Shown: in pieces, positions 5,833 to 10,249 of the stretch
Numbering within the stretch: the stretch's first letter is position 1
How the letters are laid out: every line of letters starts with the position of its first letter
Assembly: GCA_028279215.1 (NCBI GenBank)
Contig: JANQOF010000026.1
Location: forward strand, 186,001 to 250,000
Direction of reading: 5' to 3'
Source of the DNA: Pirellulales bacterium
GTDB taxonomy: Bacteria > Planctomycetota > Planctomycetia > Pirellulales > Lacipirellulaceae
Length of the DNA: 64,000 nucleotides
Notes under the pieces: model-generated
What the model saw: the letters and a program-made list of their open reading frames with translations, nothing else
Database searches by the model: none
Told to the model about the DNA's origin: nothing
Translations under genes and position numbers: made by a program

Positions 5833-5948
5833 AGCGGCATCGGGCGAGAGGCCCCTGCAATGGGGGCCTTGTGAACCTGGTCAGGGTGGAAACGCAGCAG
5901 CCATAAGCTTGTGCTTCTTTGTGTGGGGGTCTCTCGCCTGTTGCCGCT
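5833..5948 (+). ncRNA. ffs: Signal recognition particle RNA, small bacterial type
   Basis: The core 'GAACCTGGTCAGGGTGG' followed by 'AAACGCAGCAGCC' matches the conserved domain IV hairpin of bacterial SRP RNA (Ffh-binding symmetric and asymmetric loops around a GNAA-like tetraloop). The flanks pair: 'AGCGGCA' at 5833 with 'TGCCGCT' at 5942, and 'GGCGAGAG' at 5843 with 'CTCTCGCC' at 5931, giving a long closing helix of about 116 nt. The position immediately upstream of dnaX is a common bacterial arrangement and supports the call. Ends are set from the pairing and may be off by a few bases. Confidence 0.88.
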
Positions 5949-6044: not shown

Positions 6045-7829
6045 ATGGCCGACTCCGATCCGCAAGCCGACTCGGCTGCCAAAGCGGCCGCGACCTATCA
6101 AGTCATCGCCCGCCGCTATCGGCCGCAGGCGTTTGACGAGTTGATTGGTCAGGAGCACGTGGCCAAGGCGCTCGGGCAAGCGATCTCTACCGGTCGAGTG
6201 GGCCACGCCTATTTGTTCACTGGTGCCCGCGGCGTGGGCAAGACCTCAGCCGCGCGCGTGCTGGCCAAGGCACTCAACTGCGTCGAAGGGCCGACAGTCA
6301 CACCCTGCAACCAGTGCGAGGTGTGCGACGGAATCGCGTCGGGCGACGACGTCGACACCATCGAAATCGACGCCGCCAGCAACACGGGTGTCGACAACAT
6401 CCGCGACCTCCGTCAAAACGCCGGCGTGAAGGCGAGCCGCTGCAGGTACAAGATCTACATCATCGACGAAGTACACATGCTGTCGAAAAGTGCCTTCAAT
6501 GCGCTGCTCAAGACGTTGGAAGAACCACCCGATCATGTAAAGTTCATTTTCGCCACCACCGAGCCAGAGAAGATACCAATCACGATTCTGTCGCGGTGCC
6601 AACGCTTTGACTTTGCTGGAATCGATGCCACGTCGATCGCCAATCGGCTGCAACAGATTGCGGCCACCGAAGAAGTCACCATCGACGACGAGGCGCTCGC
6701 CGTGTTGTCGATTCGCGCTGCCGGCTCGATGCGCGACAGTCAGTCGCTGCTCGAACAACTGTTAGCGGTCGCCGGCAAGCAGATTACCGCCACCGATGTG
6801 TACACACTGTTGGGCATTGCACCCGGCGAGCGAGTTGCTCAGTTGGTCGCGACGATTGTCGATCGCGATCCAGCCGCAGCGCTAGGGCACTTGGACGACG
6901 CGGTTTCCGGCGGATCGGATGTCGGACAGGTGATCGACCAGTTGCTCGGTTACTTTCGCGACGTCATGGCCATGACGGTTGGCTGCGATACTTCCCAGTT
7001 GCGATACGTCTTGCCAGGTCAGTACGAACTGACCAAGACGATGGGCGACAGGCTGGGCGTGCACACCGTGCTGGCGATGATTCAGGTGCTCGACCAAACC
7101 GCGTCACGGATGCGGGGCAGTTTGCACACTCGCACTCTGGCTGAAATGGCCCTAGTGCGGCTGGCGAATTTGGACGATCTCGACAACTTGGCGGAAGTCG
7201 CAGCCGAACTTCGCGCAGGCGATACGAGTTCTGAATCACCATCCAGCGCAAAAAAAAACGCTAGCCAACCGCAAACGCTGCCAAGTACCTCGCCTGCCAG
7301 CAAAGCACCAGTGCCGCCTACCGCAACCAACGCGCTAACAGCCGACAACGGGACGCCGCAGCGTGTGGATACGCCGGCCTCCTCCACACCGCCAGCGCCT
7401 ATGAAGCTTGACGCCGCAAAGGTAAACGCGGCTTGGGATCGGGTAATCGATGCGCTTGATGAAGGTCTACTGCAGGGTTACGCGCGGAACGCCATTGGTA
7501 TCCAGTTGTCATCGGACGGCAACATTGTTGTAGCCTACCCACCTGGCGATCGTGTTTCCAAAGACATGTGCGCCAATGCAACGAACACCGCAACATTGAC
7601 ACAGGCGTTATCGGCCGAACTGGGCACCCAGGTAACACTGAGATTCGATATCGACCAGTCGGCTGGTAGCGACGCACCCACGGCCGTCGCGCAACCGCGC
7701 GTCGCCTCGAGGCGACAAATGCAGGCCGAGATCGCCGAGCGGCCGTTTGTCGCCCGAGCCATGGAGTTGTTTGGCGCCGATCCTAGCAAATTGCGCATCA
7801 CACCGCCACGCAACGATAGCTCGAGCTAG
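6045..7829 (+). CDS. dnaX: DNA polymerase III subunit gamma/tau
   Basis: DnaX is the ATPase that forms the clamp-loader core and, as tau, tethers replicative polymerases. The 594 residues show an AAA+ module: Walker A 'GARGVGKT' (60-67), the zinc-binding cysteines C79, C88, C91 and C94, Walker B 'IIDEVHML' and sensor 1 'FIFATTEPEKI'. Residues of about 380-440 are a Ser/Pro/Ala-rich linker, and the tail from about 450 resembles a tau C-terminal domain. The linker contains an A9 run (7250-7258) where a -1 slip gives a stop two codons later, so a 406-residue gamma-like form is possible. Upstream is SRP RNA and 45 bp downstream is ybaB, a classic neighbourhood. Confidence 0.96.
   Translation: MADSDPQADSAAKAAATYQVIARRYRPQAFDELIGQEHVAKALGQAISTGRVGHAYLFTGARGVGKTSAARVLAKALNCVEGPTVTPCNQCEVCDGIASGDDVDTIEIDAASNTGVDNIRDLRQNAGVKASRCRYKIYIIDEVHMLSKSAFNALLKTLEEPPDHVKFIFATTEPEKIPITILSRCQRFDFAGIDATSIANRLQQIAATEEVTIDDEALAVLSIRAAGSMRDSQSLLEQLLAVAGKQITATDVYTLLGIAPGERVAQLVATIVDRDPAAALGHLDDAVSGGSDVGQVIDQLLGYFRDVMAMTVGCDTSQLRYVLPGQYELTKTMGDRLGVHTVLAMIQVLDQTASRMRGSLHTRTLAEMALVRLANLDDLDNLAEVAAELRAGDTSSESPSSAKKNASQPQTLPSTSPASKAPVPPTATNALTADNGTPQRVDTPASSTPPAPMKLDAAKVNAAWDRVIDALDEGLLQGYARNAIGIQLSSDGNIVVAYPPGDRVSKDMCANATNTATLTQALSAELGTQVTLRFDIDQSAGSDAPTAVAQPRVASRRQMQAEIAERPFVARAMELFGADPSKLRITPPRNDSSS
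7248..7264 (+). promoter_or_regulatory. Putative dnaX slippage site (A9 run with -1 frame stop)
   Basis: In the dnaX frame the sequence reads GCA AAA AAA AAC GCT AGC, an uninterrupted run of nine A. Moving back one base, or adding one A by transcript slippage, gives AAA CGC TAG, so translation ends at TAG 7262-7264 after A-K-K-K-R. The short product would be 406 residues, close in design to gamma of E. coli (ribosomal frameshift) and Thermus thermophilus (A9 transcript slippage). No strong stem-loop was worked out downstream. Function is inferred from sequence and precedent. Confidence 0.6.
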
Positions 7830-7874: not shown

Positions 7875-8246
7875 ATGCTTAAAGGACTTGGTCAAATTGC
7901 AAACCTCGGCAACATCGTCAAGCAAGCCCAGGAGATGAACTCTAAGATGCAGGCCTTGGGCGATCAACTCAAGACCAAAAAGGCAACCGGCGTTGCAGGA
8001 GGGGGTCTGGTGGAGGTCGACGTCAATGGCTTGGGCGAAGTATTAACCGTAAGACTAGATCCCGACCTAGTGGCCAAGGGCGATCGTGAAATACTCGAGG
8101 ACTTGCTGCCCGCCGCATTTAACGCGGCCAAGGAAAAGGCTAAACAACTGCACGATCAGGCAATGCAAGAACTGACCGGCGAAATGAACCTGCCCGGCTT
8201 GGGCGACATGCTCGAGAGCTTTGGCCAGCCACCGAAGTCTCCTTAA
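7875..8246 (+). CDS. ybaB: YbaB/EbfC family nucleoid-associated protein
   Basis: A 123-residue protein of the YbaB/EbfC family, small dimeric DNA-binding proteins that coat DNA and influence transcription. The sequence shows the family's N-terminal helix ('KQAQEMNSKMQALGDQLK'), a glycine-rich turn 'ATGVAGGGLVEVDVNG', the beta-hairpin core 'VLTVRLDPDLV' and a C-terminal helix ('AAFNAAKEKAKQLHDQAMQE'). It is slightly longer than the usual 105 or so residues. It starts 45 bp after dnaX, as in most bacteria. recR, which commonly follows, is not present here. Confidence 0.93.
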   Translation: MLKGLGQIANLGNIVKQAQEMNSKMQALGDQLKTKKATGVAGGGLVEVDVNGLGEVLTVRLDPDLVAKGDREILEDLLPAAFNAAKEKAKQLHDQAMQELTGEMNLPGLGDMLESFGQPPKSP

Positions 8247-8716: not shown

Positions 8717-10249
8717 ATGCGTCTCTCGCTCGGTCAACAGATGCAACTGGCTCAGAAGCAGGTGCTTGCGCCGCGGATGATCCAGTCGATGGAGATTCTG
8801 CAGTTGCCCATCATGGCACTGCAGGAGCGAATCGAGCAGGAGATGGAAGACAACCCGACGCTCGAACAGTCGGAACCGGCGACCGAATCCGATAGCGAGA
8901 CCACTGAGACCTTCGACACCGAAAGCCCTGACGCACCAAGCGAATCGGAAAAAGAGCTGGTTGTCGACGAGGAACACAACAACGAAGACGACTTTGAGCG
9001 ACTCTTGAACATGGCGGAGAATCTGCCAGACGACTACGAAGAGCGCAGTCGCCCTTCGCGCGACCAAATCGAGTCCGAAGGCGACCGGCAACACGACACC
9101 ATGGCCAACATTTCGGCCCGCCCCGAGTCCCTGGCCGATTACCTGCATCACCAGCTCAGTTGGTTCGAAATCGAACCCGATGTGCGCCGGATGGCTGAGC
9201 GAATCGTTTATAGCCTCGATAGCAACGGGTATCTTAAGACACCGCTGGAGGAGATCATTCCCCCGGTGTCCGTCGAACTCAACGGCAACGCGGAACAGCA
9301 TCGCACAGCACAGCTTGCCGTTGCGGAGAAGGCCTTGGCAGTGGTGCAATCGCTCGACCCACCAGGCGTTGGGGCCAGGAGCCTCCGCGAGTGCCTGCTG
9401 CTGCAACTGACCTCCACGATGCCGATGGTCGACGAGTTGCACACGCTCATCGAAGATCACCTGGAGGACCTGGAGAACAATCGGCTCCCGCAGATATCCA
9501 AGAAGACGGGTTTCTCCATCGAGCGAATCAATGAGTTATGGGACGAGCTTAGGCACCTGAAACCAAAGCCGGGCGCCGATTACGGCGACGTTAGCGTGCC
9601 GAGCGTGACCCCTGACGTGTTCGTCGAGCGAGGCGAAGACGGAACGTATGAGGTGCGGCTTGAGGATAGCCAAATACCTACTCTGTCGATTAGCCCATAC
9701 CACCGTAAACTCTTGCAGCAAGCAGCGCAGCAAAAGGATGCGGAAACGCGAGAGTACATCAAGAAGAAGATCAACGCCGCTCAATGGTTGATCGACGCGA
9801 TCGAGCAACGTCGCAGCACGATTACCCGAGTGTCGCAAGCGATCGTCGATCATCAAACTCGTTTCTTGGACGAAGGCCCTGAGTTCATCGAACCGTTGAA
9901 GATGCAACAAATCGCCGACAAGGTGGGCGTGCACGTCACAACGGTTAGCCGCGCAGTAGACGACAAGTGGATTCAGACTCCGCGTGGTATCTTCCCGCTC
10001 AAGCGATTTTTCGTCGGCGGCACCACCAGCGCCGATGGCGAAGAAGTCGCGTGGGATCGCGTACGCTTGAAGTTGCAAGAGATCGTAGACAACGAAGACA
10101 AAAAGAAACCACTCAGCGACGACGCTCTTGTGGCCGCCCTGGCCGCCGAGGGAATCACCGTGGCACGCCGCACTGTCACGAAGTATCGTAAGGCGATGAG
10201 CATCCCCAGTAGCCGCCAACGTCGCGACTGGGCAGCGGTGGAGAGGTAG
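8717..10249 (+). CDS. rpoN: RNA polymerase sigma-54 factor
   Basis: RpoN directs RNA polymerase to -24/-12 promoters and needs enhancer-binding ATPases to open them. The 510 residues contain the glutamine/leucine-rich region I ('LSLGQQMQLAQKQVLAPRMI'), an acidic region II (about 55-120), the core-binding region and the C-terminal DNA-binding part. That part has a helix-turn-helix ('MQQIADKVGVHVTTVSRAV') and the RpoN box, 'ARRTVTKYRKAM', near residues 485-496. The acidic linker is long. A candidate -24/-12 site lies in this window upstream of phaA. No enhancer-binding activator gene is seen here. The start ATG is the only one before the conserved region I. Confidence 0.96.
   Translation: MRLSLGQQMQLAQKQVLAPRMIQSMEILQLPIMALQERIEQEMEDNPTLEQSEPATESDSETTETFDTESPDAPSESEKELVVDEEHNNEDDFERLLNMAENLPDDYEERSRPSRDQIESEGDRQHDTMANISARPESLADYLHHQLSWFEIEPDVRRMAERIVYSLDSNGYLKTPLEEIIPPVSVELNGNAEQHRTAQLAVAEKALAVVQSLDPPGVGARSLRECLLLQLTSTMPMVDELHTLIEDHLEDLENNRLPQISKKTGFSIERINELWDELRHLKPKPGADYGDVSVPSVTPDVFVERGEDGTYEVRLEDSQIPTLSISPYHRKLLQQAAQQKDAETREYIKKKINAAQWLIDAIEQRRSTITRVSQAIVDHQTRFLDEGPEFIEPLKMQQIADKVGVHVTTVSRAVDDKWIQTPRGIFPLKRFFVGGTTSADGEEVAWDRVRLKLQEIVDNEDKKKPLSDDALVAALAAEGITVARRTVTKYRKAMSIPSSRQRRDWAAVER

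Follow-up and report, generated by a model that had tools for sequence, protein, structure and literature searches.

The 2016 review of dnaX expression (PMC5009743) covers transcriptional slippage in Thermus, ribosomal frameshifting in E. coli, proteolysis in Caulobacter, and reversed genes in which tau is made by frameshifting. The slippage in T. thermophilus dnaX (Larsen et al. 2000) is described both there and in PMC1088944, and the gene has stops in both non-zero frames (PMC5009743). Baranov et al. placed the onset of selection related to slippage, in many bacterial genomes, at a run length of 9 (PMC1088944), and Antonov et al. 2013 listed 17 two-ORF dnaX genes, nine of them with 10 As (PMC3711429). 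The E. coli gene, our yardstick for the ribosomal mechanism, has a GGAG element upstream of its slippery site and a stable stem-loop. The planctomycete dnaX gene described here shows the Thermus arrangement, that is, a homopolymer of about nine As in the part of the tau frame that follows domain III and, class-wide, nearby stops in both non-zero frames, the +1 stop of this particular gene being 25 codons beyond the run.

The gene lies at positions 6045–7829 of the forward strand of the window (the whole 64-kb stretch of DNA that was analysed) and encodes a tau-like full-length product of 594 aa and 63.0 kDa. The N-terminal equivalog model TIGR02397 matches residues 18–373 with a score of 435.8 bits, above the cut-off of 250, which places the product in the DnaX family. 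The Pfam delta2/AAA, lid and domain III models are also matched, the gamma/tau domain III match ending at residue 382, and solved E. coli gamma/tau chains match the protein over residues 17–307. This is the single TIGR02397 match over the cut-off in the genome. A second dnaX-like gene as the source of gamma was considered and rejected, as the next-best match scores 113.7 bits, well under the cut-off. Directly upstream of dnaX, at 5843–5941, is the small bacterial SRP RNA (RF00169, 52.3 bits). The gene is followed by a YbaB/EbfC gene (TIGR00103) at 7875–8246, and the next ORF, at 8717–10249, by eye resembles RpoN more than recR.

The zero frame of dnaX at 7248–7265 reads GCA AAA AAA AAC GCT AGC. 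The putative slippery run, A9, occupies positions 7250–7258 of the forward strand (codons xxA AAA AAA AAC, residues 402–405), at the start of the tau linker. In the −1 frame it is followed at once by a TAG (7262–7264), and the product of one added A or of a −1 ribosomal shift would end in SSAKKKR. This predicted gamma-like product (6045–7264, forward strand) would contain the ATPase modules, domain III and about 20 linker residues. The +1 frame is closed by a TAA at 7336–7338, farther from the run than in most homologues. When the run length is varied on paper, A9 gives 594 aa, A10 gives 406 aa (43.4 kDa), A8 gives 430 aa (46.2 kDa), A11 gives 431 aa and A12 gives 595 aa; the slipped +1 products would carry a tail of 24–27 residues. 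The tau-specific linker and C-terminal region (7265–7829, forward strand) would be translated only when the transcript has 9 or 9+3n As. The initial annotation, which had noticed the A9 run with an immediate −1 stop, a −1 product of 406 residues and about 43 kDa, and the placement of the run at the beginning of the tau linker past the AAA+ module, was thus accurate in its description of the site.

The presence of such a run says little by itself. One A9 is seen in the window at an expectation of 0.33, and 22 of 100 shuffled windows contain at least one; a single A9 per window is unremarkable, and rarity in the window is weak evidence. Six separate A-runs of 9 or more exist in the whole 4.56-Mb genome. 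At least three of the others fall in protein reading frames, namely those of a sulfatase, a PPIase-domain protein and CTP synthase, those in the PPIase-domain and CTP synthase genes being situated near the C-terminal (3′) end; the positions of other A9 runs are 1501 in L252 and 1501 in L257 and L258. Since genes other than dnaX contain A9 runs, rarity alone is insufficient, and the strong evidence is conservation.

The dnaX loci were sampled from the family, order, class and phylum of the window, non-randomly within each rank, and the percentages given below refer to related homologues and do not count independent trials. Judged by the named records that they resemble, the order is Pirellulales (f7 being close to a Pirellulales MAG and f15 to Aporhodopirellula), f22 is close to Schlesneria and f23 to Gemmata. 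In class Planctomycetia, a run of 9 or 10 As follows closely on domain III in 161 of 196 dnaX genes and in 24 of 26 families. Within residues 370–480 of the 196 class loci, A9 occurs in 109, A10 in 52 and A8 in two, and there are no longer runs; over their first 370 codons these genes contain no A-run longer than 7. The median position of the run is residue 415 (10–90% range, 400–436). All three phases are seen (9.2 in 76 genes, 9.1 in 25, 9.0 in eight, 10.1 in 27, 10.2 in 23 and 10.0 in two), and the base after the run may be any of C, G and T. In a DnaX phylogeny of 270 loci from the phylum, computed with FastTree from the N-terminal 375 residues, at least 34 changes are needed for presence or absence of the run, 25 for its phase and 50 for phase plus length; these counts, obtained by parsimony on one tree without a shuffled comparison, serve only to show that the changes are many. 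Whatever the length or phase of the run, the tau reading frame is uninterrupted in nearly all of the Planctomycetia genes sampled. Many of the genomes are metagenome-assembled, and the A-run is present in complete single-contig genomes as well, e.g. G003 and G204. Outside the phylum, such a run was found in two of 64 named relatives, a set biased by retrieval. The conserved element is the run itself rather than the peptide or a fixed heptamer register. Conservation in related dnaX genes had been proposed in the initial annotation as a check, its absence to count against programmed recoding, and the run proved to be conserved. In family f22, the dnaX linkers of L234–L237 contain a pair of A9/A10 runs separated by a few codons.

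The stops in the two shifted frames are conserved along with the run. A −1 stop within 10 codons past the run is found in 90% of the homologues, compared to 31% when the codons following the run are shuffled (the largest value in 300 shuffles being 42%), and a +1 stop within the same distance in 85%, compared to 24% (largest value, 35%). Related homologues are not independent, but the averages over 24 families, 93% for the −1 stops and 88% for the +1 stops, point the same way. The equivalent region of the class genes lacking the run has −1 stops in 21% and +1 stops in 17%. Near +1 stops are found in only 7% of family f27, whose putative slippery site is a heptamer with seven As.

We consider it very probable that the A9 is a programmed transcriptional-slippage site of the Thermus type, giving gamma-like products. 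While copying A9, the RNA polymerase would allow the nascent A-run to shift its alignment with the template, and the resulting mRNA would be a mixture with 8, 9, 10, 11 or more As. The 594-aa tau would be translated from mRNAs with 9 or 9+3n As, the 406-aa gamma-like protein from those with 10 or 13 As, and a short form of about 430 aa from those with 8 or 11 As. Every short form would retain the ATPase modules together with domain III but would have neither the tau linker nor the C-terminal region. We infer that slippage occurs in this organism and that its short product becomes part of the clamp loader. The suggestion of the initial annotation that gamma and tau production is likely programmed here is well supported comparatively by the class-wide presence of 9–10 As in three phases with paired stops. 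Of the two parallels it had drawn, Thermus slippage is favoured, and ribosomal frameshifting of the E. coli type is disfavoured.

Programmed −1 ribosomal frameshifting at A_AAA_AAA or A_AAA_AAC, terminated by the TAG at 7262–7264 and thus E. coli-like with another heptamer, is an unlikely alternative as the main mechanism, although the heptamer is in frame and the −1 stop is immediate. Moreover, A_AAA_AAA is contained in any A9 of any phase, hence the ribosome could contribute in addition to slippage, and the sister family f27 appears to use A_AAA_AAA or G_GGA_AAA with a Shine-Dalgarno element and a hairpin. On the other hand, such a heptamer needs seven bases, whereas selection keeps 9–10 As, and the +1 stops, also selected, would be superfluous for a −1 shift. 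Further, three kinds of test revealed no strong stimulators. The hairpin signal downstream of the run in Planctomycetia (z −0.07) does not differ from that of control stretches (−0.32). Shine-Dalgarno matches of at least 4 nt are found upstream of the run in 19% of the class genes against 18% for the control in one test and 19% against 14% in another, and the upstream duplex energy with the anti-Shine-Dalgarno, −2.88 against −2.34 kcal/mol (p = 0.016), is a difference that is absent in a matched-length test; the excess is at most a trace and we do not read it as a conserved element. The same script applied to family f27 yielded a hairpin z of −1.54 against −0.15 for the control (p = 0.0002) and Shine-Dalgarno matches in 70% against 27% (p = 0.00004), which demonstrates that the tests are able to detect such elements. 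At the window site only TGA (3 nt) matches a Shine-Dalgarno-like stimulator upstream, and the 50 nt downstream fold with −7.8 kcal/mol and z −0.3, compared to −19.7 kcal/mol and z −1.0 in E. coli, where the composition-corrected value is itself unexceptional; the z test thus has limited sensitivity for a single gene. An upstream structure was tried as another candidate and rejected: the folding energies of 50 and 30 nt are below the control but the z-scores are not, which points to composition, not structure. Hence the length of the run, the stops in both frames and the lack of strong stimulators together favour slippage over a ribosomal shift.

It is far less probable that the run is a DNA-level contingency tract, subject to replication slippage and phase variation with no programmed recoding. 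A run of A9–A10 is indeed mutable in DNA, and both its phase and its length shift often on the tree. However, the tau frame is kept open in nearly all sampled genes, so that the length changes are compensated and do not represent on and off states; dnaX is generally an essential replication gene; and conserved stops in both other frames would serve no purpose in a phase-variable tract. Least probable of all is a lysine-rich linker peptide conserved for itself with an incidental A-run, for although in most genes the run is translated as KKN, KKK or KK, the lysine codons of the class genes outside it are AAG in 60% and AAA in 40% of cases and yet AAG is not used in the run (the probability of all run lysines being AAA under per-gene usage is about 10^−177 on the assumption, not valid here, that the genes are independent), the differing phases yield differing residues, and the genes without the run keep no lysine cluster at the site.

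Those genes number 32 of the 196 class members, defined by the lack of any linker A-run of at least 8 (e.g. L019, L020, L028–L030, L128 and L131). A search of all 32 for a replacement slippery site revealed G or C runs of 6–8 in some, none of them consistent and none with paired stops. With no obvious substitute in these genes, gamma made by the A-run route is dispensable; in these genomes gamma may be absent or made otherwise.

Slippage at an in-frame run would be one of several dnaX layouts in the Planctomycetota. In L199, L315, L348 and L351 the run is A10, the zero frame ends just past it, and the tau tail, recognised by the tail profile with E-values of 1e-13 to 1e-20, is in the −1 frame; three or more such loci are outside the class and one is inside. 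Their tau would need slippage, and such genes are tolerable under slippage since the run length in the DNA may then differ from the one that gives tau. Family f27 (L367–L396, 30 loci) has a gamma ending at 374–445 aa; in nearly all members the gamma stop is preceded, at a distance of three bases, by A_AAA_AAA or G_GGA_AAA, and the −1 frame runs into a tail with a recurring HPLVRxAxELF-like end. The Shine-Dalgarno element of this layout is upstream and its hairpin lies behind the stop. This is likely a case of reversed −1 ribosomal frameshifting, with tau being the shifted product, across some 30 genera. An f27-like dnaX layout is also observed in L347, L356 and L358. In family f33 (L397–L415) nearly all loci have a C_CCY codon at the end of gamma, 0–1 codon before the stop, a strong hairpin directly follows the gamma stop, and the tau tail is in the −1 frame. 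A standard slippery heptamer is missing in most of them, and their layout, too, suggests ribosomal frameshifting with tau being the product of the shift. On balance, we lean towards the view that the Planctomycetota have switched repeatedly among modes of splitting dnaX: class-wide slippage at 9–10 As, the off-register A10, the reversed −1 shift of f27 and the −1 shift at C_CCY of f33. If so, a single phylum would arrive at the same ratio of products by transcription as well as on the ribosome, and in both polarities.

It is a matter of debate whether a separate gamma is needed in bacteria, and for what reason. A recoding site kept class-wide through at least 25 phase changes is strong evidence for selection of the short product, and the run-less genes of the same class provide natural controls. 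The phylum also permits a direct comparison of the slippage and ribosomal frameshifting solutions. Annotations of the present genomes would show just one of the two dnaX products unless recoding is considered.

Compared with E. coli dnaX, the short gamma of the window gene would likewise end in the −1 frame and at a nearly equivalent place (431 aa in E. coli, 406 here). The site differs in that A_AAA_AAG is absent, the run being followed by C (A_AAA_AAA / A_AAA_AAC), and in that it has neither a GGAG-like element upstream nor a strong stem-loop downstream. With the two-ORF genes of Antonov et al. 2013 (PMC3711429), which have a poly-A of 7–10 and for which transcriptional realignment was proposed, it shares the poly-A; the window tau, unlike theirs, is one zero-frame ORF with no out-of-frame tail, and it is the relatives L199, L315, L348 and L351 that resemble the two-ORF genes. 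A search of open-licence papers revealed no reports of dnaX slippage in planctomycetes; the kind of recoding proposed here is already known from Thermus, and its apparent class-wide spread in planctomycetes was not found described. The present gene differs from that of Thermus thermophilus in belonging to another phylum, in the +1 stop being not close, and in that its slippage is a prediction from sequence. It is like the Thermus gene in having A9 on the sense strand, tau in one open frame and stops in both non-zero frames, an arrangement in which a ribosomal stimulator would be unneeded.
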